DNA of 64,000 nucleotides from Acholoe squamosa (Eukaryota > Annelida > Polychaeta > Phyllodocida > Polynoidae): NCBI GenBank assembly GCA_949317995.1, contig OX439047.1, forward strand, positions 46,873,505 to 46,937,504, written 5' to 3'. Each line of letters begins with the position of its first letter. The first letter of the stretch is position 1. The notes under the pieces were generated by a model, which saw nothing but the letters and a program-made list of their open reading frames with translations, ran no database searches and was not told the origin of the DNA. Shown here piece after piece: positions 729-58,900 of this stretch. The translations under genes and the position numbers were made by a program.

Positions 729-1645
729 TTTCACAGTTCATGATGGCAGTTATAAAGTTAGTCTCATGTGTGCTGTCCTCTTTGTCTTCCAGTAGAGGTC
801 TGTTGTAGAACCTTGCAAATGTATTGGTTCTTTCCCATTCTGCTGAGCTGAGTGTGTCATTTATTGGTACATTTAGTTTTGTGGAGTATTTGATCCTGAT
901 GATATCATCTGATAGTCTGAGGTTAGTTCTTAGTAGGGCATAGGCTCTGTATTCTCTGACCTGTTGCTAGCATTAAGAGTAGTAGCGTTCTCCTTGTTAG
1001 CTTCTCCAGATCTAGCTCCTCTATGTCGCCCCACTGTGCCAGTTTGTGTAATACTGGCGCTGGGTCCCATATGTATTCGTAAGGTTCCTGTGGTGGATTT
1101 AGGGCTTTTGCCCCTTTTACGAGTTTTTGTGTCAGTGCAGGTTCCCCTAACGGTCTGCCTTCTATGTAGATGAAGCAGGACATCAGGGACCTGGTAGGGG
1201 CTACTGATGAGTGTCTCACCCCACTGTTGGAGATCTCTGTTAGGAAATCTACACATTGGTGTATTGTGGGATGGGTGACGCTGACGTTTTTGCTGGTGTG
1301 TTTTAGCCACTTCCTTGTGGCTGTTGCATAGCTGGCTATTGTAGATTTTGACCATGAACCCATGAGGAGCTCCCAGGATGTCTTGGATATTCCAATATTG
1401 TCACCCCAGATGGTTTCCATGGGGGGCTTGTCATTTATAGGGGCAGGTAGGAGTCTCATCCTGTTGGCCATGAGAAAGGTTTTCTTCTGGTCCCCTGGCC
1501 ACTGCAGCGTTGATGTGTTGACCCTTAGGGTCCATCTGTTCTTGAAGGTGGGCAGTCTCTTGAGGTTGGGGTACCAGGGATGTGTCTTCCACTCCGATAC
1601 GAGTAGCAGCCCTCTGGGTCTGTCTTCCTTCAGTATCCTGACCAA
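718..1645 (-). pseudogene. DIRS tyrosine recombinase, frameshifted and internally deleted
   Basis: The N-terminal part (to about 923) has the core-binding-like region GSWSKSTIASYATATRKW and then LATGQRIQSL, whose Arg is the first catalytic residue. The frame shifts near 930-950. The continuation reads through a beta-strand region to SAEWERTNTFARFYNRPL, which resembles the family C-terminus with the nucleophilic Tyr, and stops at 718. Between the strand region and SAEWER, around 833-850, the block that normally carries the His-x-x-Arg box is missing. The start overlaps the RNase H frame by 16 bases. The protein would have cut and joined circular element DNA; this copy cannot. Confidence 0.85.
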
Positions 1646-2244
1646 GTTATAGAGAATGCATCAGTTCCATATGCACTTGGGTAGTGGTGTAGAGATACAA
1701 AGTGTTTGCATATTGCATTGGAGGGTGAGGCAAATATGTAAGTGTCAGGTTTTGGGAACTTTTTGAATATTTTCTGTTGGCTTTCAGGGCTCAGTGTCCA
1801 TTCTCCTGCCGTGGAGAAGGCTTTTGAGGCTCTGTCTGCCTTAACATTGTCCTCTGAGGGAATGTATGTGGTTTTGAATGTTATATTCATTTCCCAGGCC
1901 AATCTAAATACACTTTCAGTGGCTTTTTTGCAGGAGATGTATTGGCTGGATCCTCCTTTGTTGAGGCAGCTGATGGCTGTTGTGTTGTCTATGAACATTT
2001 GCGTGTGTTTTCCAGTTAGGGATTTTTTTAAATGTAGTAGTGCCCTGTGGACTGCTAGGATTTCTTTTATGTTTATGTGGAGGGGTTCTATCTCTCCACA
2101 CCATTCTTCCTCATATTCAGAGTATGTTTCCAGGATGTAGGCACCCCACCCTGTATCTGAGGAGTCTGATTTTAGTGTTATCTGTGGGCACTTTTCTGTG
2201 TACGTTTTCTTCAAGAGTGGCAGGTACTGTAGGTTTTCTCTCAA
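1630..2244 (-). pseudogene. RNase H domain of the DIRS-like element
   Basis: A 204-residue open stretch with all four expected acidic residues in order: Asp in LKSDSSDTGWGAY, Glu in IKEILAVHRALL, Asp in MFIDNTTAISCLN, and Asp in NVKADRASK. This fits the retroelement RNase H fold that degrades RNA in RNA:DNA hybrids during reverse transcription. It follows the reverse transcriptase after a frameshift near 2245-2255 and overlaps the recombinase frame at its end. The individual domain looks intact even though the polyprotein is broken. Confidence 0.87.
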
Positions 2245-2252
2245 GGTTGGTT

Positions 2253-3361
2253 TTATAAACCCTCTGAGAGGGATGATTTATCCTGTGTTTTGTTTAAGGC
2301 CTGGTCTTTTGCAATGATGAGCTTTTTGGTAAGTACTGTTGCTCTGTCATTTCCTGGTTCTGTGACTGCTAGGGCTCCTAGAACCTGTGAGAATTTTCTT
2401 ATGGTACATATTTGTACCTTAAGGATATCCTCCACTTTTTGTGAGATATCAGCCTGTTTTTTGTTTGGTATCATGAGCGTTAGTGTGGGTGACTGCAGTG
2501 TGAAACTCAGGTACTCAGTTGTTTGTGTTGGTTCTAAGACTGATTTGTCAAAGTTAATTGTAAAGCTGAGCTGTTCTGACTTCTTTTTTGTCTGCATAAT
2601 TAGCGTGTCGTCTATGTAAAAGACAAGGTTTTGTTCTCAGGTGTGCCATGAGTGCTTTCATGATTTTTGTAAAGATTCTAGAACCTCGGGAGTAGCCATT
2701 GGGGAGGCAGGTGAATCTGTATCTCTTGCCATGGTGTATTAGTTGTAGGAGGTCCCTGTCCCTTAATTTTACCGGTAGTGAAAAGTAGCCCTGGGTTATG
2801 TCTATGCTGGTTAGGTAGCTGTCTTTTTGTACCATATTCATAACTACTGACAGGTGGTCCATCTTGAAATGCTTATATGATGTGTATTCATTTAAGCTTG
2901 ACAAGTTTAGTATGGGCCTGTATGTTCCATTAGATTTTTCTTTTAGGAACATGTGTGAAACAAAGGCTCCTGGCGATGGAAAGGCAGGTTCTATTATGCC
3001 TTGTGATAGCAGTTTTTCAAGTTGTTCAGTCATAATACTGTCTTTCACTGGGTCCAAACATCTGGACATCAGGTTGTCTCACCTGAGTAGGCAGGGAGCA
3101 GAGGCTTACGGGTAGGCCCTTTACCATGTCCAATACCCATCCGTCTGATGTGTATTGTGACCATTGTGTCTGCTTCCCTGCCCAGGCCACCTGCCTGGAA
3201 AGTGGGACTTGTGTGTGTAGGAGGTAGGTGAACTTACTTTTGCTTTTAATGCCTGTTGTTGGTGCTGCCTCCATTGCACTGACATTTGTCTTGCTTGTTT
3301 TTGTGTTGTTTGCTGTTGTTGTATTGGCCTCCTTTGGTGTGCTGTTTCTTCTTCTCATCAT
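2253..3361 (-). pseudogene. Reverse transcriptase of the DIRS-like element, frameshifted
   Basis: The first open piece (3361-3026) ends with SDGWVLDMVKGLPV, the usual lead-in of DIRS/Pao-type polymerases. The second (3069-2554) has GIIEPAFPSPGAFVSHMFLK, then RPILNLSSLNEY, then TSIDITQGYFSLPV with the first catalytic Asp. A frameshift near 2640 moves the YIDDTLI box (two catalytic Asp) into a third frame, which runs to 2253. So at least two frame changes separate motifs that must lie in one polypeptide. The function would be copying element RNA into DNA. Order and motifs leave little doubt about the family. Confidence 0.9.
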
Positions 3362-5135
3362 ATTTTCCTTGGTGGATGTTGTTTCTGCCTGCTGTTGGTT
3401 GTTTTGGTGGTACTTATTTTGATGCTGTTGGTGCCCTTGCTGTTGACCCCCTGGGCTGGGCCCTTGCTGGAGTTTCCCTGGTTAGTAGGCTTCCTTTTGT
3501 CTTTGGGTGTGATGAAGACTTCTTTGAAGGTGTCATGTAGCTTACTGCGTGTGGTGACTTCCTCTTTTAGGTTGTCACCCATTAGGTTTTGGAAACCTTG
3601 GTTATTGTTATCTTTGGCCAGGTGTCAGGTGGGGCCTGCAACTGTGTTCTTAAGGAGTGACCTCCTCATGTTATTGAGTCTCCAGGAGGTTTTGGCAATC
3701 AGGGTTAGGGAGTCACATATTTTTATTGCCATTTCCTTTGGGGTCTGTGTTTTTGCATCCAAACTGTTGAGTGCTGATATCAGTGGTCTGGCTGCAAATT
3801 GGAGGGCCCATTGCATGGACTTATAGGGTGCATCCGTGTTCACAGTCTGCTGCTTGTATTTGGGGTCCTTAGCTTCCAGCTCGTCAAGGATCTCTTGGTT
3901 TATTCTCGTCTTGTGGAGGCTGTCCATGTTGTCTGGTCTGGGGTATTTCCCATACAGCATTGCTGTGTCTGTCTTTCCCAGGGGTGCCTTGTATGTGTCG
4001 CTGATCAGTGTTTTTACATTGGCCCTTACAGGACCTGTAGTTTTGACCATGGGCTTCTCTTTATGTATCTTTACTGCTGTGAGTCCAGCACTTCCCCCTC
4101 CTCCAGCTCCCCTCTGTCCTTGTCCTGAGTGGGCAGGGCTGGTCTATTGGCAGGGGCATCATTTCGGCTCTGTGTGCCACCAGGTGGCAGTTGAGTGCCT
4201 CCAGGTGGTGTGGTGCCAGCCCTGGTGTTGTATGCTGTGGAGGCGGGTTCTGGGCAGGTAAGGTCCTCCTGTGTGTGGCCGTGTGTCCCGCGTCCACTCT
4301 GTATCTGGGGTGCAGGTAGTATTCCATGTCTGCCTCAGGTGATATGGGATGTACTGTCCTCCTTGGCCCTCCCACCTGTAGGTTGCTGTAGTGTGGGGCC
4401 GGATAGCCATTTTGTCTGTGGTAGAAGGTGATGTCCCTGTAATCCTGGAGTGGCATCCTTGGGTAGTGGTCCCCAAATGTAGGTCACCTCACCTTGTAGG
4501 CTACCCTGCCTCTAGGGACATCTGGCTCCGATGAGTCGGGTGTGTACCTGGTGTACCCCGCTCTGGTGTGGTGGGGTTGGTGCTGTGTGAGGTGTAGATG
4601 CCTGGGCCATTCCATTGTATGTTTTCTGCTGCTGCTCCCACCTCCATCTCAGCTGGTGGAGTATCTTCGGTCAGGTCACACTTCCTGTGGCCATCACACC
4701 TGTGGCTCACATTAGCAGTCCATGGGGCCCTGCAGTGGCTGCAGTAGGGGCATCTCCCTGCCCTACTCCTTGAGTATTTGTATGTGATTCTCATCCAGAC
4801 CTGACCTGCCAGTGTTAGGTTTCTGGTTGTATAAATTCCTCAGATATTGAGTCAAGTTGTTGTGTTGAGATGTCACCCTGTTGTTGGTCGTGCTTGGATG
4901 CACACATGGTGTGTGGAAGCGTTTTATGGCCTCCAGTCACTTTGAAGCTGGTCCCCTTAGTTGTAGGGTTGTATAGGGCTAGTTGCCATAGTCCCACCCA
5001 ACCCCGGGGCCCAGCTGTGTAGGTTCCGTTGAGGCCGCCTTGTATGGCTGGCCTCCTGCAAGCTTTGTGCCATGGAGGGGGAAGGAGCCTAGCTCCTACC
5101 TCCCTTGCGGTCGCTGTAAGAAGGACCACCTCCAA
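3358..5135 (-). pseudogene. Gag-like region of the DIRS-like element, multiply frameshifted
   Basis: Four or more open pieces in different frames (5135-4815, 4794-4501, 4456-4061, 4050-3625, 3582-3358). The second has a Cys/His cluster, CPYCSHC then SHRCDGHRKCD, that could bind zinc. The third is Pro/His-rich and probably a linker. The fourth has SLHKTRINQEILDELEAKDP and a helical tail, similar in style to DIRS gag-like proteins, and the fifth continues with NLMGDNLKEEV before a Gln/Asn/Lys-rich stretch. The likely role was binding element RNA and packaging. Assignment rests mainly on position before the reverse transcriptase. Confidence 0.65.
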
Positions 5136-42539: not shown

Positions 42540-43170
42540 ATTTCTAATGTTAAGACAAATCATAACTTTGGAACTGTTACAAAATCTAGTTTAGTATTGT
42601 CAATATACAGATCAGGCTTTAAATTATCGATATTCTTGAAAGGTGGGGTGAAGTATGTACATTTTGTCTTTTCTATGTTTAAACTTAGCTTATTCTCCTT
42701 GCACCACCTGCTGAACAGGTCCAAATCCCTCTGTATCTTTCTATTGATATCTTCCAAACTATCGCTAGAATAATATATAACAGTATCATCTGCATATAGC
42801 CAGACTGTACTATGTTCAAAAATATTTACCATATCATTTACGTACAGTGAAAATAATGTCAGCCCTAATACTGAAACTTGTAGGACACCTCCTGTCATGC
42901 TAGCATCATCAGAAATGTGACTATTGGCCTTTGTACATTGGGATCTATTTTCGAGATAATTTGACATTAATTCTAAGAAATTCCCTGAAACCTCATATTT
43001 TTTTTCAATTTTTGAGCCAAAATTAAGTGATCCACAGTATCAAATGCTTTGGAAAAATCTGCATATACAGCTGCTGTTAATAACCCCTTATTTCTATTAA
43101 TTAGGATATCATCAGTAAATTTAGATACAGTGTCTATGGTAGATCTCCCATGTTTTCAACCAAGATGCTA
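42540..43170 (-). pseudogene. LINE reverse-transcriptase fragment, truncated at both ends
   Basis: Reading from 43170 downwards, a GRST-like box, then ADFSKAFDTVDHLI with the first catalytic Asp in a shifted frame, then from 42967 a 135-residue open frame with TGGVLQVSVLGLTLFSLYVN, VWLYADDTVIYYSSD (YADD box) and a KTK-containing stretch. It breaks off after the thumb region and lacks the endonuclease. It is related to, but clearly different from, the LINE at 44.6-50 kb. Confidence 0.85.
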
Positions 43171-44275: not shown

Positions 44276-44682
44276 AAAAACTATCTACCTATTTTATTTT
44301 TTTGAACAAATTTAAACTTTATTTGGTCTAGTAGTACATACATCATGTAAACATAGGCATGCTGTGTATTTGTTGGTATGTATTAGAATTTAGCGTATAT
44401 ATATATTTGCCTAAGTACATACGTTGATATATTACATGATTACCCATTTTATAAGGTAATTCATTTAATAATAACACGACCAAACAGTTAATGACCAGAT
44501 CGTCATTTCAGAAATGTTGTTATGATCTGACCATATAAATCAAAACCGGTATTCATACAAATTATAAGATATAATAACAATAATTTTGAAACAATTTGGG
44601 GCACTTTTAGTCTACTTTAAATATAGAATAATAATAATTACCCCTCCCTAGTCTCATAAATGATTTTTTACAGCATGCACCT

Positions 44683-44968
44683 ATACAGTCCAATACTAGA
44701 TAACGTTATGCAAGCTTTGACAAAGTCGATGTAGACCATCATAAGTAGTCTGAAATAGACCGTTACTATTGCACTTTAAGGATTAGGTTTAACTCAGTCA
44801 TTTTTTGGTACAGTATGTACAATATATACAGTTCAATAAAAGATAATGTTAAGCAAGCTTTGACAAGGTCGACGTAGTCCATCACAAGTAGTCTTAAATA
44901 GACCGTTACTATTGCACTTTAGGGATTAGGTTTAACTCAGACATTTCTAGCTACAGTATGTATAATTA
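44683..44968 (-). repeat. 143-bp tandem repeat in the LINE 3' region
   Basis: Two head-to-tail units begin ATACAGTCCAATA and ATACAGTTCAATA. Both contain GCAAGCTTTGACAA, TAGACCGTTACTATTGCACT and ATTAGGTTTAACTCAG. They lie directly after the ORF2 stop and are probably 3' UTR. Confidence 0.85.
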
Positions 44969-44982
44969 TTTTACGATATATT

Positions 44983-47900
44983 TTATATATTGATAGATTC
45001 TATCATACATTTCTTTGATAAGGCTTTAAATTTGTCTTTGTCTCTAATATTTCTGATATCAGGCTCTAGATTATTCCACGCTTGGGCACATAGACATTCA
45101 GGAGATTTTGTGTAAGCTGTACAATTAATTTTCATATAATTTAATATCGGAGCACTTGAAAATCTTGTCGTTCTAACAGTAGGTTTAATATACTCTTCCT
45201 TTGTGGATCTCTTATAGGCTAACATTTTTATATGATGTAGTCTCCTAGCTTCAAGTTTCGGGCTCCTTGTATCCCTATGTACAAGATCTGTTGGGGTTAG
45301 TACATGTACATCTAGACAGGTTTTTAAACATTTATTTTGCAATCTTTGCAATACTTGTAACAAATCAGCATTAGCTCCATTATATAAAATATCACATTGG
45401 TATTATATGCATTTTGTACATTCTTATTCTTGCTGCAGTTGATAGATATTTTCTTGTTTTATACAAAATTAATGATTTGTACCGAACACTCTTGATGACA
45501 TTTCTCATATGCATATTAAAATTCATTTCTTGGTCAAGGGTAACCCCTAAGTATTTGTATGATTGAACATTCATTAACGTTTTACCATTAAGGACAATCT
45601 TAGGTTTTTGTATTTTCTTCAATTTGATTGCTGAAGCAAAGGTCATTATTTTCGTCTTGTTTTCATTCATTGTAAGTTTGTTGGCTGAAGACCAGAGAGA
45701 GAAGGAATTAAGTGCAATAGTCAACTGATTTGTTAAGGTGTCTAAGTTTTTACCGGATACATACAGTACAGAGTCATCTGCGTATAGCAAGGTTTTATGC
45801 ACATCATTATCAGAAATGCAATCATTAATATACAACAAAAAGAACAAAGGACCCAATATTGAGCCCTGTGGTACGCCACATGTTAGACTTGCTTTATCTG
45901 AACGTATATGGTTGGCTATAGCACATTGCTGTCTCCTTGATAAATAATTCTCAATTAAGGTTAAATTTCTATTTCTGACTCCGTATTGTTCTAATTTCTT
46001 TAATAATATTAAATGATTTACCGAATCAAATGCTTTTTTTATATCAATAAAGGCAGCCATTGTTATATTACCTTCATTTCTATTTTTTAATACATCATCA
46101 ACTAATACTGAGATAGAATCTAGTGTAGATTTACTTTTCTGGTATCCACCTTGGTTTTTCGATAAAATATCATATCTTTCTAAATGGTCACTTAGTTTGT
46201 TATGTATAAGTCTTTCTAGGATTTTTCCCGGTACCGGTAGAACACTTATCGGTCTAAGGTTAGAGACATTGGATGGGTCCCCTCCTTTGGGGAGAGGAGT
46301 CACCGTAGCAATTTTCCAACTATCAGGGATTTGGCCTGTATTCGTAATCAAATTAATGATTTTTATAAATTTTTGAGGGAACTTTAACATAGTTTTTTTA
46401 AATATATCTGTAGATAAATAGTCAATAGCAGATGACTTGGATATGTCTATGTCAGATAAGCATTTCATAATTTCATCATCTGTAAAGATCATCTCTGGCA
46501 TATCCACCTCACATCTCGTGCCCTTAAAATTAAATATGGTTTGATGTTGTTCCGCCAGCCTAGGACCAATTTCTGCGAAAAAAATTATTTATATAAGTAG
46601 AGGTATCATTAATTGTAATTACTTGGCCGTTTTCGTCAGTTAACATGATTGACTTGCTGCTAGTTTTATTTGAAGGTAAAATATCCTTAATAGTACTCCA
46701 AAATTTCTTAGAATCTTTCTTAAATACTTCAGATAGGTTGGAATAATATGTGTAGAGGCAAGGAGAAAGGGTGCTCCATGCTAAAAGTCAACTTTAAAAT
46801 TCAAATCATTAGCTTTACAGTGATACATAGCATGAGAAGATACTCCTGTTAGTTTTGGAGGAATGGCTTGCTAGATATGGGTAGGTGTGACCATTTCAAG
46901 AATGTTAATAAGCTCTATGTCTAATTGGTCATGAGATATATAGCTAATTAGCATAATGTATGCTAATTAGCTAAATTCGTATAAATTTTTATTCTTTTGC
47001 CCATAACTTTTGATCTAGAAATGGTATTTTCATTCTGTTTTCGCCATAGTAAACCTTGTGGGATGTTCCTTCAAATGGAATCATTGATTTTCCTATTTAG
47101 AATGAAAATCATGTTTCCATGGCAACAGAAATCAACAAAAATGCCTATTTTGGCCCAAAAACATTCTTTTTACATGCCAAATTTGGAACCTTTCCACCCA
47201 AAATAGAACGTTTTGTCAAAAACCATTGAATTCTCCATAAAAAAGTAGCCTATAACAGTTTTAGTCATATTTTTCCTATTCTAGTCCATAGTGGTGCCCC
47301 CTGGTGGCTAAATCTGGTACTAAATCCCGCAGTAACTGTCCTTTCTGCTTGCTGGCTCACATATGTTTCCTTAGCCAATTCAATGTCTCTATTAACTTGG
47401 TTTCGACTCTCTCTAGCTCTATGCCATGATATGATATCCATATTTTTCCTGGCTAACTTTATTAATGCATTTTTGTCGTTGATCTTTTCAAGTAGCTCAT
47501 TAGACATCCATGGGCTAGGTTTGTCTACCACCTTAAAGCTTTTTACCGGACATTGCAGGTCTAACATTCTTTTTATCATATTTTCTAATATAGTCCAGCA
47601 AACATTTGGGTCGTTTGATTCATTAAAATGGTCCTAATTACAATTTTCTAAGTCTAGATAAAAATTTTCTATATTAAGTTTGTTGTATGATCTTCCAAAA
47701 AATGTTCTAAAATTTTTCTTTGTGTGTATTTGGGCTTTTTGGATATGTACCGGTAGGTGGTCCGATAGGTGTATGTTCAATGCACCGCGAGAGGTAATGG
47801 AATCACAGTTTGAGAAGATCAAGTCTATACACGTGTTGGTACCTGATGTGGTTGTGACCTCGTTAACAAGTTGTACTAAGTTAAAATGATCAAAGGTTTC

Positions 47901-48479
47901 TATAAGTAGTTGTTTGTCTGGGGTATTAGTTAGTACATTTACATTGAAATCCCCTAGAATAAAAATATCATATCTATCCAAGTTGTCTATTTGTAGTAGT
48001 AAAGCTCGCATTGTGTTACAGAATTCCATAAGGTTTCCCAAAGGTGGTCTAAAGACATTACATACTATACATTTTTTATTTGCACCTTTGGCTGATAGTA
48101 ACCATTGAACTTCTATATTTTCATTAGATCTGTTTAAGGCTTTGAACCTGTCTACTGAACATGATAGACTTTCATTAACATATGCACAGAGTCCACCTCC
48201 TCTATATATACTGATACGGTCTTGACGAAAGAGATTATACCTTGGGAAGCTATACAAGTTACTACAATCCATTTCGTTCAACCAGGTCTCAGAAAATAAT
48301 ATAATATCAATGAAATTGTTATTCAGCTCCTCTTTGATTTTTGTAAATTTATTTCTTACACTCCTGGCATTCATATGTATTATTGAGAAACCTTTCCTGA
48401 ATTTATTTTTTAAAGACATGTTGTATCTGGTAAGTACATATAAGCTTGATATAGTCAACATGCTGCATAATGTATACAT
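44983..48479 (-). pseudogene. LINE ORF2: endonuclease plus reverse transcriptase, disrupted
   Basis: The endonuclease part (48479-47634) keeps its active-site residues: Asn37 in HMNARS, Glu64 in SETW, Asp177 and Asn179 in GDFNVN, Asp219 in CIDLIFSN, and Ser239-Asp240-His241. A TAG at 47634-47636 interrupts it, after which the same frame continues to about 47361. A 609-bp insertion follows (46752-47360). The polymerase part has FIDIKKAFDSVNH, GVPQGSILGPLFF and LLYADDSVLYV, all in a 371-residue open frame (46507-45392). Frameshifts lie near 46580 (T run) and near 45393. The C-terminal piece ends at 44983. It would nick the target and prime reverse transcription there. Met21 of the first piece is an alternative start. 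Confidence 0.92.
46752..47360. mobile_element. 609-bp insertion inside LINE ORF2
   Basis: LINE coding sequence stops at AKETY and resumes at TYYSNLSE. ATATGT is present on both sides (46746-46751 and 47361-47366), consistent with a target duplication of 6 bp or slightly more. The ends GTAGAGGCAAGGAGAAAGG and the inverse of CCTTTCTGCTTGCTGGCTCAC are imperfectly inverted. AT-rich interior with no protein. Probably a small non-autonomous DNA transposon. Confidence 0.72.
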
Positions 48480-48688
48480 GTATGATCATTCTACTGGTGC
48501 ATGCTACATCAATCCAGGTCATTGTAAACCACGTGTTATAAAAATATACATACCCCCCCCCCTCCACAGGCTTACAGCTCTTCTGGCTACCTATGGTGAT
48601 CAGTATATGAGTCGGCAGTTAAAATTTCAAGGACTATGGTTTTATATCAATTAGGAACTTAGCTATATAATATACAAGAAGATATTTA

Positions 48689-49198
48689 TTAATTTTCATC
48701 TGGATTTCCATGTACTCTGGTTAGTTGCGCACGGATTTTTTGAAGGATTTGTCCCATCAGATTCTCCCCTTTAACATTTCCTGTCGTACATTGGTTTGCT
48801 TGCCCGAAGTGCATTTTCACTCCCCATATAGGGTTGAAGCTGGCCTCATACAAGTTTTTGTCTCCAGTAGAGATAAGATAGTCCCTCATATATGGTGTGG
48901 AGAATTTCTGCTCGTTGATCTCTTGCATGACAGTGGTAGCCATCTTGTTCCATTCTGCTGTGGGTCTGATTTTCCTTGCTCCGTACATTATTTGTACCGG
49001 GTCTTCTAGCTTCTTTAAGGATGTTACTAGGTTGTACTGGCCACAAGCTTGGGCCTTGGTCACTTGATAAGCCTGCTCGGAGCTGTTGTATTCCACTCCT
49101 CTATATGATACTTGGCAATGGAAAAGATTAGACAGTTTGTGATGGTGTGACTTGAACATTAGACCGTCTGGTGTTTCGGCTTCATTGGCTTTTTGCAT
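48689..49198 (-). CDS. NADAR-superfamily (YbiA/DUF1768-like) protein encoded within the LINE
   Basis: 169 residues, uninterrupted. Family features in order: LSNLFHC, then EYNSSEQAYQVTKAQA (the SEQxYQxxKA signature), then MYGARKIRPTAEWNK, then KFSTPYMRDYLISTGDKNLYEAS, then IWGVKMHFG, and finally ENLMGQILQKIR. This covers the whole single-domain fold at its usual length. NADAR proteins are known to cleave N-glycosidic bonds: YbiA-type enzymes on riboflavin precursors, and DarT1-associated NADAR proteins on ADP-ribosylated guanosine in DNA. It starts two bases after the ORF1 stop, in another frame, suggesting coupled re-initiation. Role in the element unknown; reversal of ADP-ribosylation is inference. 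Confidence 0.88.
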   Translation of the reverse strand: MQKANEAETPDGLMFKSHHHKLSNLFHCQVSYRGVEYNSSEQAYQVTKAQACGQYNLVTSLKKLEDPVQIMYGARKIRPTAEWNKMATTVMQEINEQKFSTPYMRDYLISTGDKNLYEASFNPIWGVKMHFGQANQCTTGNVKGENLMGQILQKIRAQLTRVHGNPDEN

Positions 49199-49200
49199 GT

Positions 49201-50004
49201 TCAGGTCTTGGTATGGTAGCTGGTGAAGTTGACTGTGTTCGTAGGGTTCTTATCTATTATAATTTTACGTTGCCTCAACTGAGTATTGTACCCCTGTCGT
49301 TTCGCCAGGTAGTGCATGGCACGTAGATCATTGAATTCTCTTTGCTCCACCTCTCCGAGTTCATCCCCAATAGACACATATTTATATAGAAACTTGCCTT
49401 TTAAGTTCTTGAGGAGTCTCATCAGTTTCGCCTTGGTATATACATTATTGAACACAATTTCAATCGGTCGATAGTTCTTCTTATTTACATCGTGGGCGCC
49501 GCCATCTTGGTTTCGTGTGACGGGTGTTCCTGCGCGACTACAACTTTGTACGCTTTCGATGCCAAAATCCGCGCGCACATCTAGGCCTTTTACCACCACA
49601 ATTTTCCTCTTGATGTCTTCATCTATTTTCTCAAATCTTTGTGCATGCTTTAATAGCAGGTCTGTTTGCGCTTGGATATTTTGTGTGTGTGCCGTCATGG
49701 CGTCACCCGTTTCTTTGACAGTGGTGGATACAGAATTTAATGTTCCTTCTGTGGAAGTTAGCCTGGTTGTTAATCCGTCCAAGGTTGTGTTAATGGTGGT
49801 GGAGGTCTTATTTAAGGTATCAATAGAGTCCTTGAACCCATCGAGACTAGTTTTCATCTCAAGTTGAAGTTCCTCCACTGTTTTGACTCTCCTGTCAATA
49901 GAGTTGACGGCGGCGATGACATCCTTCAAAGTGGCTTCCGGTGAGAGCATTTCAATTTCTTTTCCTCTCCTCCTGGTTTGAAGCTTGTCTTTAGCGTTTG
50001 ACAT
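49201..50004 (-). CDS. LINE ORF1: coiled coil plus RRM-like RNA-binding protein
   Basis: 267 residues, intact. Residues about 20-135 are heptad-rich (IDRRVKTVEELQLEMKTS, then repeated LxxLTTRLTSTEGTLNSV-type segments), a long trimeric-style coiled coil. From about 135 comes an RRM-like part: KRKIVVVKGLD, then RPIEIVFNNVYTKAKLMRLL, then KGKFLYKYVSIGDEL and a basic tail QLRQRKIIIDKN. This resembles ORF1 proteins of LINEs that coat element RNA and chaperone its annealing. ORF1 ends in TGA, followed by AC and the ATG of the NADAR frame. It is on the same strand as ORF2 and in the expected position. Confidence 0.82.
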   Translation of the reverse strand: MSNAKDKLQTRRRGKEIEMLSPEATLKDVIAAVNSIDRRVKTVEELQLEMKTSLDGFKDSIDTLNKTSTTINTTLDGLTTRLTSTEGTLNSVSTTVKETGDAMTAHTQNIQAQTDLLLKHAQRFEKIDEDIKRKIVVVKGLDVRADFGIESVQSCSRAGTPVTRNQDGGAHDVNKKNYRPIEIVFNNVYTKAKLMRLLKNLKGKFLYKYVSIGDELGEVEQREFNDLRAMHYLAKRQGYNTQLRQRKIIIDKNPTNTVNFTSYHTKT

Positions 50005-50010
50005 CCTGTA

Positions 50011-52472
50011 TGTATTTGGTTGGAGCTTTTATGAAGTAGTATGTCAAGTTTGACAACGTTCCTATATATATATCCTAGTAGATTTGTAGAAATTCTACAG
50101 TCCAGTTTTCAACCGCTCAATCTTGTACCTATTCATCCTATTTCTGGCCTCATTTGAAAGAAAACACTTGGGGCTTCAGAAAACGGGCAAATTTGCATAT
50201 GTCGGACCACTATTTTTTTTAGATATGTCAGGTCAAAGTTGAAAAATGGCTCAAAGTTGCCTTTTTTTCAATTTCCATCTCATTAGAGGCCCTATAGCAT
50301 CTATCCAAGCAGTAAGGGACCAGATAATTGCATTCTATCCAACATTCCAATGTAGTTTAGAGGTGATATGTCTCATAAATCTTTTACCCTATTGGTTCTT
50401 ATAACCTGAAAACACCGTTGTTAAGGTGTGTGATGAATCGTTTTTGGCAGTAGATGAGTTATAAGTATATTATGCCTAGGCTTGTTATTTATCACAAGCA
50501 AAGTGGTCCTTATAGGGTATTTTTAGGTAAAATATTTTTCCCCTACATACCACCCGGTGTGCACAATACACATTCAAGTAATTTTCAAGTCAATATCACT
50601 GACACTCCTTAAATCAAGATTTTCTCATATGCAGCCTATATTAATCATTTTTGGATTATCTTATCCACCCTACAGTGTATATCTTTTGGTGAAGTATTAT
50701 TTTTAAAAAAAAGAAATGAAGTCTCTACATGTCTTGGTTGGCCCAAACCAGACTCATTTGCCTGTGTTAAGGTGCGTGATGAAACCAGTACTGGTCCCAT
50801 ACCAACACTGTTCTGCCCGAAGCCATTTACATTTGTGGTTTATATGATAGAATGATGCTTTGGCTTTTATTCTAATCACTCTGTGTGTACACCCTACCAT
50901 TTTAGAGGCCCCCAGGTTAAGACAAACAGGTTTTTGGACCACACATCACTCTTTTGGCCCTTCAGCGACCGATTTTAGGTATATTATTCACTAGTTTTTT
51001 TGTAGACATACATCCTCTAAGTATTTCTCAGTGATTTAGTGTGAAACATCGCTGCTTACTTTGGTTATAATGGTACAGTGGCCATAATATTGCCTTGTGT
51101 GGTTGATTCATCACGCACCTTAATGAAAAAATAGATGTACGAGGCACATTTTGCTCCCTCTTATGCGGATTCCCATGCTGTCATCATTGGAGGGTGCCTT
51201 GATATGATATAGATATTTGCTGTATTTTGCCATTGCACACATTTTTAACCATCAATTATTCACATTTAATATATACCCTTATTTTAGTGTTTTAAGAGAC
51301 AAAAGGAGGATGGGACTCCCATGTCCGATGTTATTTTCCTAGTGCCAGGGAAGACCCTAGATGGGTAGATATTCTATAATTCCTGATTTTAATCAATAGC
51401 CCAGAATGTTTGGTACCTGTGTATGTAATACCATTATGATATGAAAGCTTCAGGTGCCTGTATGAGGTAAATTACTTTGTGGTAGTGTGTGTTAAGGTGC
51501 ACGATGAATCCCGCCTCCGCAGGGGTGTCATTTTTGAGACTAAACCATACAGAAAATATACAAAAGAAGTGATAAATGATGATTGTTACAAGAATTTTAC
51601 ATATTGAAGATGTAATATATTGATTTTCATGTTTAGCCTACAGGTTTTGAGCCAATAACACCAAAGTTGAGATTGTGTGCAAAAATTTTTGAAAAATCTC
51701 AATCTCCAATATACAAGATATTGAATAATTTCCGAAGTTTTCAAACCTCAGTTCTACTTTTTTGTAAACACATACTAGGGTGTTGCAGTAGATAGGACAT
51801 GGAATCTAGTAAGGATAGGACGATCTTTGAAGGTGAAGTGTGTAAAATAAAGTATCGTTAGGGTGTTTGATGAATCAATTGTGTGATTTTACGGCAAGTG
51901 CAATAAAAACTGACCTCCTGGGAGTTAAAGACTTGAATGTACCTTTTCATAGAGCCAAGATAATTATAGGGCTATCAATAAAATAAAATCTTATAATGCA
52001 ATGCTGAGTTTGTCTTCCTGACCCCCTGAGACCCAAAGGTGGGAGCTTTGGGAATTATATGTCCCTCTCACACTCCCAGTCAAAAGTATAGTACTTTTTT
52101 CCGTGGCTGTCAAACCGTTTGTGTCTGTGCAATATTTCTCCATGTACCATTCGGCATTCCTAGCCACTCTCTCTATGTTGGTGCCGCCGTCTGGGTGAAT
52201 AAGGACATTCCCCACAGTGGTATGCATCGTGTAATTCATCTAGGCCTTTACCCCTAGAGTCCATAAAAAAGACAGTGCAATGAGCTGGGGGTATGACCCC
52301 CCTTCATGCCATATATCCAATAGCTTGTATCCAAGGCATCATACGGTCAAACTTCACTAGGTTTTCTCTGGTTATCAAACGAAAGGATCCTTTCCTGTAT
52401 GAAATGAGGGAAAATAATTATGCGCATTATATATTTCAAATTGAAGCTTTGAGAAATTTATCTAAAATCTTC
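50011..52472. other. Intergenic with five spaced TTAAGGTGCGTGATGAATC motifs
   Basis: No gene. A motif close to TTAAGGTGCGTGATGAATC occurs at about 50421, 50767, 51104-51122 (inverted), 51492 and 51858, spaced roughly 340-380 bp apart. The sequence between them does not obviously repeat. Confidence 0.75.
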
Positions 52473-55976: not shown

Positions 55977-58900
55977 ATGAATGAGGCATACTTCAGGTGG
56001 GTCTGTCTCACCTGGCTTTTATGTGAAGGTAAGTTAAAGATCCATTTGAACGTTTTATCAAACATGGAAAATATAACTCCATATCAAACAAGTCATACAG
56101 ATTCATTTATTGAGACATCTGTAACATGATGTGAATCATCCATCTGATTCCTGTAATATATACAACACTTTATATCATTGTCAAAAACACCACTTTAATG
56201 GCAATTTATAAAAGCAGGTGGATAGTGTAGCACTGTAATTACTTTTGCATGTTTGTTGTATATCATTTGTGTATGACAGTTAGCAGAATTGAAAATCTCC
56301 CCATGCAATGTAATTTTTTGCCAATACCATATCAATCAATCAAATCACACTATAGTTAATCACACAAAATTGCATCTCTTCTCATAAATCAGTATTAGGT
56401 CATTTCCATTATACAAAGATGACAAACCAAGGTATAATTTGATACTATGCTATTTCATCATATTAAAATCCTCTCATCTTCCTCATCTCCAGTGGCCATG
56501 GGTGGAGACTACCACCACATGCACCTGGGCTGTTATCGTACACCAGAGCCTGGAACCACAACTGATGGCCTTAAGTACCATTACGCCACACTGGAGTTGG
56601 GTACCTGTGCCGCAGGTTGTAACAGGGAGGGATACCCCTACATGTCCCTCCAGAAGGGCAAGCACTGTCTCTGTGTTTCAGAGTATGGGCAGGGAGGACT
56701 TACATTCGGCTCAGGTAGGACTGGGAATAAGACAGCGTTGCATCACTGTTTAAGTCTCAGCAGGGACTGATTGGGTTAAATGGAGGGATTTCTACTATTA
56801 CATGTACCAAAATGGTTTTATGAATGTTTCATCATGGGATACAAACTGCTGAGTAAATATAATGGAACTACCGATAGACACAGGGAATTGGTATTCAAGA
56901 AAGACACCAGAGGTCAGCAGTAATATTTAAAGAATCATGCAGAATCTCATTTTGTTTTTCTCTAGTCAGGATTAATATCGTACTAAAATGTTCTCTTTTT
57001 CCAGCATGCACAGAGACGTGTCACACAGACAAAACCTTCTCGTGTGGAGGGGACCAAACTGAGAATGTCTACTATGCCGTCAACACAGGTCAACTTTATA
57101 TGTACACCTTTTACTCTTTGAAATGGGAATTTAAGACCTAGAGGTCGTTTCACAACATTTAGCTACATTTTTAATAAAAAACGGTCCTTTATATATTTGC
57201 AAATATGGAGGTTTGTATTTCAAACGTTGGGTCCAATTTTGAATTTGGAGGGGTATAGGGCAGGTGGATTGGTCAAACGCGCTGAAATGGCCTCCAGGCC
57301 AGACTTCCTTAATATGAACTACATCCCATCTCCTTTAATGTATTGTGAATCTGGCACTTAGCACATTTAGATTACAAAAATACTTACAAAGTCACACTTT
57401 TCCCAACTTCAATCGTCAGAAATTGTCCAAAGTGTGATGAGCGGTAGACATTCTTGGTATTTGAACAGTCAGTGTGATATAGATTTCAAACTGCTAGATG
57501 GAGAAGGTTTAATACCCTGACTTTCACCCTCACCTTACCATGACAGAGCGGCAGTTGGTTAACGAGAGGATTGAGATACTGAAGGTGACCAAAATGAACT
57601 TCCTCCAGGCCAGGAAGGAATGTATTCGGATGGATGGGGACTTGGTAACCCTTAAGGATATCTTCCAGATGGAGGACATTGTGTCCACCGTTAACCAATC
57701 AGAACATGCGTAAGGATCAACTTCCAATCTCTCGTTGTTTTTTTTTTTTTTTTTTTTTTTTTTTTCATTTCAACCTTTCTACAATGCATGTGGATAGCAA
57801 TTTGAATCCTTTATACACATCCTTGTAGAATCCTGTGCTGCATCCATTATTCTTCAGGAACAAGTTGAACATCATGTTGACCTTTAGGGCAATGTTTCGG
57901 TCATTGTCAACTAGACGTATGTGAAAAAGATTTTTTATAATAGATGATGAATTATATCCTCTCTTGATACATTGCTGAAAGAATTATATTCCTAAATTGG
58001 CAATAGTTTAAGGTAAACAGTTCGTGCATGGTCAATCTGTTCTGATTTATTCCAGGAAACCCTTCTGGATAGGTCTATCTAGAGTTTCATGGCAGAGTTT
58101 CAGACGCTGGACAGTTCCCAATGTGGTCGGCTTGGACCCCTCCGGTATGTGCTTTAGGATCGTATTTATATGTATTTGATATTATACTCAAAACGCAGCT
58201 TTAAACTCCGTTATGGTTTCCAAACCATATATGAGGGGTTAATCTTCCGGGTTGAATTTCGCCATTGAGTAATTCACTCTGTTTAGAATAGTGTTTCATG
58301 CACCTGTTGTCAAGATCAGCTTGCGACACAAGGAACACTTCCTAAACTGATATTTTATCTCAAATTTTACTTTGATATCCAAATAATAGGTCACTTTTAA
58401 TTTTCAGTAGAGAGATCTATATTAGGATTGTTATTCACTGGGGAACAATTTTTCTTATGTCTTATATTATCTCTGTGACAATTAGATAGCAGTATGTTCT
58501 GGGCCCCTGGACACCCCATACAAGACAACCACTGTACCCTGTTGGACCCTGGCACCCTGAGGTGGCAGAGTGCTCCATGTCACCAGAGTCACCCCTTCAT
58601 GTGCCACCAGGTGCCGCCACCACCAACACGTCAGTATTAACGTCATATTATGTCACATAATTAACTATAATACAATTTAATTAGAAATGTGACATGAATG
58701 TCATATTTTCAATGTATACGATGTTGAATCTGCTTACACTCAGTTACAGCATATATGTGGATCAACATGGTAAAGGTATGCCCGCGAGGGGGTGCGGGGG
58801 TGTACCTTTTACCGTGTTGATCCGCATATGTCAAGATTCTAGGTTTTGTTACTTTCTTAACCACAGAAGAAATAAATAATAACCTAGTGAATCGTCTGAA

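Follow-up and report, generated by a model that had tools for sequence, protein, structure and literature searches.

The LINE copy in the window

The 64,000-nucleotide stretch of DNA that was analysed, referred to below as the window, carries on its minus strand a LINE copy in which the open reading frames (ORFs) follow one another in the order ORF1 (50004-49201), NADAR ORF (49198-48689), endonuclease ORF (48485-47634) and reverse transcriptase (RT) ORF (46588-45392). The element and its parts, from the 5' to the 3' side, are as follows.

~44294-50125, minus strand: LINE copy with an A-rich 3' tail; 5' boundary and 3' end set by other copies
50126..50133, no strand: target-site repeat AATAGGTA, 5' side
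49201..50004, minus strand: ORF1 part, coiled coil then RRM-CTD; 51 nt short, its early end resulting from a 1-nt frameshift at ~49255
48689..49198, minus strand: NADAR domain (C-terminal in ORF1p in the family), with E41, K48 and E118 at the catalytic positions
48451..48688, minus strand: spacer from ORF1-NADAR to ORF2
47634..48450, minus strand: ORF2 endonuclease domain (Exo_endo_phos_2, 8.1e-9), closing at an in-frame TAG at 47634
46765..47310, no strand: stretch interrupting ORF2 in the window copy; bounds approximate, set by eye from the sequence
45392..46588, minus strand: ORF2 reverse transcriptase (RVT_1, 2e-36; against PDB, L1 ORF2 61 bits and R2 52 bits)
44983..45402, minus strand: ORF2 C-terminal part, in another frame (change at ~45.4 kb)
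44682..44966, minus strand: tandem pair of 143-nt units within the 3' UTR
44286..44293, no strand: target-site repeat AATAGGTA, 3' side

An endonuclease together with an RT, target-site repeats, an A-rich tail and the occurrence of 5' truncated copies mark the element as a LINE. Of 29 other copies, 27 have the same 5' boundary, with unrelated sequence upstream of it (L031 and L055 start later), and the 3' end was fixed from four other copies. Relative to the family start, CAAGATGGCGGC, the window copy begins with CAAGAT and then lacks 13 nt. The 8-mer AATAGGTA abuts both ends of the window copy; about 0.04 exact 8-mers would arise by chance over the sequence compared, and the placement of the repeat at both predicted ends makes chance still less likely. 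The window copy is the one clear case of such a repeat, there being a 12-nt near-match near the two ends of L030 and none, by the same search, in L029, L043 and L046. The 143-nt unit of the 3' UTR aligns in more than one register in three of four other copies, and scans for tRNAs and Rfam families at the gathering threshold gave no match. The family start CAAGATGGCGGC lies at ~1391 in the fetched loci L029, L030 and L046 and at ~1388 in L043, which has three extra bases before it; it looks like a YY1 site such as human L1 has at its 5' end.

The preliminary description of this DNA reported an open NADAR ORF between ORF1 and the endonuclease-RT ORF2, two bases from the ORF1 stop, in a copy whose ORF2 had decayed, and the sequence agrees with it on each of these points. 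The ORF1 open frame spans 49201-50028 on the minus strand, and the NADAR ORF (48689-49249, minus strand) has its first ATG at 49198, two bases past the ORF1 TGA (49201-49203). ORF2 is closed by the TAG at 47634, interrupted at ~46.8-47.3 kb and changes frame at ~45.4 kb. Within its LINE family, this copy is a decayed one that carries frameshifts, and no special reason is needed for the NADAR frame having stayed open in it while ORF2 decayed.

A single ORF1 protein

The separateness of the NADAR ORF is peculiar to the window copy. Thirty copies of ORF1 plus NADAR were fetched and aligned, one of which (L028) is the window copy itself, and by comparison with the 29 others the window copy has lost 51 nt within ORF1 and, near 49255, a single nucleotide; these losses make ORF1 end early and give NADAR the look of a separate gene. 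In 28 of the 29, the last part of ORF1 is in frame with the beginning of NADAR (26 without a stop between them, L050 and L056 with one each), the sole exception, L036, having its own frameshift at the junction; in 16 of the 29 a single open frame (453-456 aa) leads from the ORF1 Met to the end of NADAR. The family is predicted to encode one protein made up of a coiled coil, an RRM-CTD and NADAR. A separate NADAR gene between ORF1 and ORF2 is rejected on the strength of the shared frame in 28 of the 29 other copies. The first proposal, that of a LINE with its own NADAR enzyme, holds in that the domain occurs family-wide and in the same place, and fails in that the domain forms the C-terminal part of ORF1p and has no gene of its own.

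With regard to the rest of this protein, a profile built from the RRM-CTDs of eight LINE ORF1s finds L1 ORF1p in all four of its top PDB matches, at weak E-values of 0.017-0.034, and a profile of the whole of ORF1 finds coiled-coil matches only. ORF1p of the L1 type is known to trimerise and to coat the RNA of its own element.

NADAR as a trait of the family

In the genome searched (1.48 Gb, 63 contigs), the best 40 of 268 candidates for the DNA of ORF1 plus NADAR, the window copy included, all reach the NADAR end, 9 of them beginning inside ORF1; identity to the window copy is 86-94% for the others. Among the best 40 of 525 candidates for the endonuclease, 24 adjoin a scored ORF1-NADAR match (on the same contig at a distance of <2.5 kb, regardless of strand). 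The ~1 kb upstream of the other 16 holds a whole NADAR in three cases and a partial one, cut from the 5' side, in seven, and the remaining six copies are cut within the spacer. None of the 40 scored endonuclease copies has ORF1 joined directly to the endonuclease without NADAR. NADAR is a trait of this family, found in the same place across its copies as the preliminary description would have it, and the finding that was to count against it, copies that lack NADAR for reasons other than 5' truncation, did not appear among the 40.

These copies also dispose of the notion that the window NADAR is a host fragment caught by a single copy. Its look of a separate ORF in the window is all that speaks for such a capture, to which we give practically no credence and which is rejected here: every one of the best 40 of 268 ORF1-NADAR matches reaches the NADAR end, none of the 40 scored endonuclease copies has ORF1 joined to the endonuclease in its absence, and the stand-alone NADAR loci of this genome (L008 and L009) group with a Bacillus NADAR and not with the window family.

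At the protein level, stops are absent from 60 of the 63 sequences that score highest against the window NADAR (at least 85% identical, self included), in a list whose ranking by score favours intact copies. Stops become commoner further down, and some are common to one young subfamily. This subfamily (L107-L112, of which L107-L110 are at least 99.1% alike) has stops in both the coiled coil and NADAR; its members multiplied despite them, and presumably moved in trans or by duplication.

Other LINE families with NADAR

The family in the window, W, has company in the same genome. A first look with the Pfam NADAR model turned up 3224 candidates; the best 150 were scored, and all of these lie above the cut-off. 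Of 20 loci fetched, 18 stand in a LINE-type ORF1 or ORF2 context, as judged from reading their ORFs, and the two without such a context are L008 and L009. Six NADAR-LINE families were read in protein detail with their downstream RT. In families A, C-F and W and in the loci L083, L089 and L094, as read from the alignment, NADAR follows a coiled coil and an RRM-CTD and starts shortly past the end of the CTD (L094 is frameshifted); family B has only a coiled-coil-like stretch before NADAR.

The RTs that follow these ORF1s differ in their affinities. That of family A (L018, L074) is of the L1 type, with 233 bits against human L1 ORF2 and 71 against R2. The corresponding scores are 66 and 69 bits for family B, 49 and 54 for family D, which shows no preference for L1, and 61 and 52 for W, which has no marked preference for L1 and on these scores is not assigned to the L1/Tx1 group. 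The RTs of families C, E and F are 43-56% identical to one another and to that of D; the W RT is 32-35% identical to those of C-F, and it may, by its motifs, be CR1/L2/Jockey-like.

A search with the family C ORF1 part minus NADAR gave 125 matches among the 133 scored of 1615 candidates. Of the 36 best, 25 adjoin a scored NADAR match; the linkage covers these 25 of 36, and members without NADAR may exist. Two weak ORF1 matches outside the scored NADAR list were fetched in looking for such relatives, and both have NADAR at the same junction.

Some of these elements carry further frames or domains. In families C-E (L013, L015, L020, L076 and L077), ORFs lie between ORF1 and ORF2 with weak matches to GDSL/SGNH hydrolases; four of the five ORFs scanned gave matches at E 4.5e-5 to 0.14, all below the cut-off, and L013:2440-3237 had no such match at 0.001. 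In family B (L026) the part that lies C-terminal to NADAR gives a weak esterase-like match (0.0018).

Fold and active site of the domain

The assignment of the domain to NADAR, originally made by reading the translation, is borne out by the Pfam model PF08719, which matches the window NADAR at 6.1e-23 (82.3 bits against a cut-off of 35.1). PHROG 1017 matches at 4.3e-31, and the NCBIfam model TIGR02464, which describes a riboflavin-intermediate N-glycosidase, passes narrowly (75.8 against 73.7). PDB entry 8bau is found at 9.8e-5 with the single sequence and at 3.8e-24 with a seven-row profile. An AlphaFold model, computed from an alignment with 15 viral relatives, has a pLDDT of 92.4, and its only PDB matches at E <=0.001 are 8bau (an ADP-ribose-bound NADAR, TM 0.81) and YbiA, 2b3w (TM 0.69), the next having an E of 1.8; its fold matches in BFVD include nidovirus replicases.

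Residues E41, K48 and E118 correspond, in the alignments, to E43, K50 and E125 of the Phytophthora nicotianae NADAR (the 8bau chain index is higher by 2), whose catalytic roles are given in passages of PMC11543638. Among the LINE NADARs surveyed, both E41 and E118 are present in 67 of 67 rows (66 distinct, the window copy being in twice), and position 48 is Lys in 60 and Arg in 7; rows with a NADAR domain of <130 aa were left out, which in the window family applies to L037 and L047, with frameshifts in NADAR. A Lys-to-Arg NADAR still acts in vitro, according to the same source. The active-site residues are common to the window NADAR and families A-E despite agreement at 21-28% of positions. 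The D-x-x-W-G motif is more variable: its Asp is replaced by Asn or His in W and its kin and its Trp is replaced in families C-F. The DarT1-associated NADAR (BC4488) differs in having Asp for the last-strand Glu and a DarT partner; the window NADAR has Glu at 118.

The narrow pass of TIGR02464 and this YbiA-type Glu would be in keeping with small-molecule substrates (damaged nucleotides, N-glycosides of the riboflavin-intermediate kind, or ADP-ribose signals); NADAR would then serve for sanitising these or for quenching a signal. Soluble ADP-ribose derivatives have been proposed as targets of phage NADARs in passages of PMC9503650. Against this reading, those passages propose macromolecular targets where the NADAR belongs to a eukaryotic RNA virus, and the attachment of the LINE domain to a protein presumed to coat RNA favours a substrate bound in nucleic acid; we consider small molecules an unlikely answer.

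Selection on the domain

Constraint on NADAR is of the same order as that on its neighbours. The codon-model omega for 16 uninterrupted copies (picked for their frame from the 29 other copies) is 0.129 for the coiled coil, 0.138 for the RRM-CTD and 0.144 for NADAR, and that of the endonuclease is 0.139 in 18 copies. Parsimony counts for NADAR give 29.5 nonsynonymous and 79.5 synonymous changes on internal branches, a ratio of 0.09, and a ratio of 0.14 on terminal branches; the same count gives 1.18 and 2.25 in the two shifted frames. Third positions account for 151 of 220 changes. NADAR is under purifying selection like the RRM-CTD and the endonuclease, its dN/dS of ~0.14 falling below the value of 1 against which it was to be judged. 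Several terminal branches are shorter than 0.01 substitutions per site, which points to recent movement of the family.

A domain that is fused and conserved like the other parts of ORF1p could be a folding or oligomerisation part of that protein, with an enzymatic role unneeded. We find this improbable in view of an active site that the window NADAR and families A-E have in common at the level of agreement given above.

Origin of the LINE NADARs

A single clade of LINE NADARs is not rejected by the AU test (p 0.359 with 34 rows, 0.246 with 36 rows and 0.395 with 34 rows and family A out); the NADAR tree is compatible with such a clade and does not decide the matter. The shared junction suggests an old common architecture, in which either ORF1 was swapped between LINE lineages or the fusion predates them. 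The tree, the deep branches of which are weak, gives no sign that the LINE NADARs descend from the stand-alone L008 and L009. The L008 NADAR shares 56% identity with a NADAR from a B. velezensis plasmid, and L008 and L009, which group with a Bacillus NADAR, may have come by transfer from bacteria. Searches of viral and genome collections for relatives of the window NADAR, and of viral contigs for ORF1, found none; phage records hold four weak relatives of the RT.

Relation to known systems

The presence of NADAR in the ORF1 of LINEs is already in print, and the principle is known: passages of PMC12477816 report NADAR, seemingly in the ORF1 proteins of several Tx1 LINE families of Crassostrea gigas, and their authors likewise suggest a role in processing of element RNA. 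Those elements resemble the window family in having NADAR in ORF1. For LINEs, the passages mention it in passing, from a Repbase query, and for Tx1 families only; the window RT has no marked L1 preference. The Gypsy elements of the brown alga Ectocarpus reported there are also retrotransposons with their own NADAR, but they are LTR elements with NADAR fused to Pol, and the same passages suggest bacterial acquisition of that NADAR as possible. The NADARs of P. nicotianae (8bau) and E. coli (YbiA, 2b3w) share the fold and the catalytic Glu/Lys/Glu and have no fusion of the ORF1 type. Those in polyproteins of invertebrate RNA viruses, described in passages of PMC9503650, likewise belong to an RNA-based parasite, one without retrotransposition. 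The literature search, which covered sources other than subscription papers and preprints, found no other report of NADAR in transposons. Within the reach of that search, it is new that such fusions occur in LINEs that fall outside the L1 group and that they are abundant in a single genome; the test for selection, the survey of active-site residues and the junction common to the families are new as well.

What NADAR may do for the element

All NADARs tested in one study removed ADP-ribose from guanosine in RNA (PMC11833690), and NADARs strip ADP-ribose from guanine in both DNA and RNA (PMC11543638, PMC11125620, PMC11833690), as passages of these reports state. By analogy with this published biochemistry, the counter-defence or template-cleaning role first suggested for the window NADAR would be reasonable. 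The reading that we prefer, with a probability of roughly 45%, is that NADAR on ORF1p hydrolyses guanine ADP-ribose of the element's nucleic acid, so that the RT stays unblocked. Because ORF1p appears to be of the coiled coil plus RRM-CTD type, many ORF1p, each with a NADAR, would be expected on each element RNA: trimers, by analogy with L1, would coat that RNA and many NADAR units would thus sit on every element RNP. There they could remove ADP-ribose from guanine in the element RNA, and also in cDNA or target DNA during reverse transcription, and the RT would be spared a block by host or environmental guanine ADP-ribosylation.

The fused frame, purifying selection, the kept catalytic positions and the fold of an ADP-ribose-bound NADAR all argue for de-ADP-ribosylation. 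Guanine-DNA ADP-ribosylating activity occurs in six edible clams, according to passages of PMC11209040. On the other side, a search of the animal's own genome for DarT (PF14487), the sole guanine-targeting transferase searched for, gave no match, which leaves the source of the substrate unproved; the D-x-x-W-G motif has lost its Asp in W and its kin and its Trp in families C-F; YbiA-type NADARs are able to use small molecules; and the young copies L107-L112 have a broken NADAR, which makes an intact one dispensable in cis for a given copy, though their coiled coil is broken too.

The genome also has 37 PARP-domain matches, which are pieces and hence represent fewer genes; they can be counted in favour of hydrolysis too. 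Together with the ADP-ribose-bound fold and with other ORF1p domains that look nucleic-acid-related, they would also suit a NADAR that acts as a reader: bound to ADP-ribose or poly-ADP-ribose, it would tether the RNP to DNA breaks or condensates marked by PARPs, with catalysis secondary. Both catalytic Glu residues are invariant in 67 of 67 rows, which goes beyond what binding seems to need, and we rate such a reader as quite unlikely.

If hydrolysis of guanine ADP-ribose is combined with the shared junction, a wider and more tentative scenario emerges, unlikely as a whole, in which the coiled coil, RRM-CTD and NADAR were fused once, long ago, are now found in LINEs with differing ORF2s, and act as a counter-defence that clears guanine ADP-ribose from element RNA and cDNA. 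The counter-defence reading, if true, implies that hosts use ADP-ribosylation of retrotransposon nucleic acid to restrict these elements. An active domain would mean that a large group of retrotransposons has an ADP-ribose-removing enzyme on its RNP; it would point to nucleic-acid ADP-ribosylation as a form of retrotransposon restriction, and could account for part of the abundance of NADAR in invertebrate genomes.

Elsewhere in the window

Three further features were noted in the window. A retroelement at 923-4500 combines an RT with parts that resemble RNase H and a tyrosine recombinase; we take it to be DIRS/Ngaro-like. A fragment of another LINE RT, 38% identical to that of the LINE described here, lies at 42560-43039, and a WSC-domain match (1.8e-9) at 56438-56767 is probably part of a host gene.
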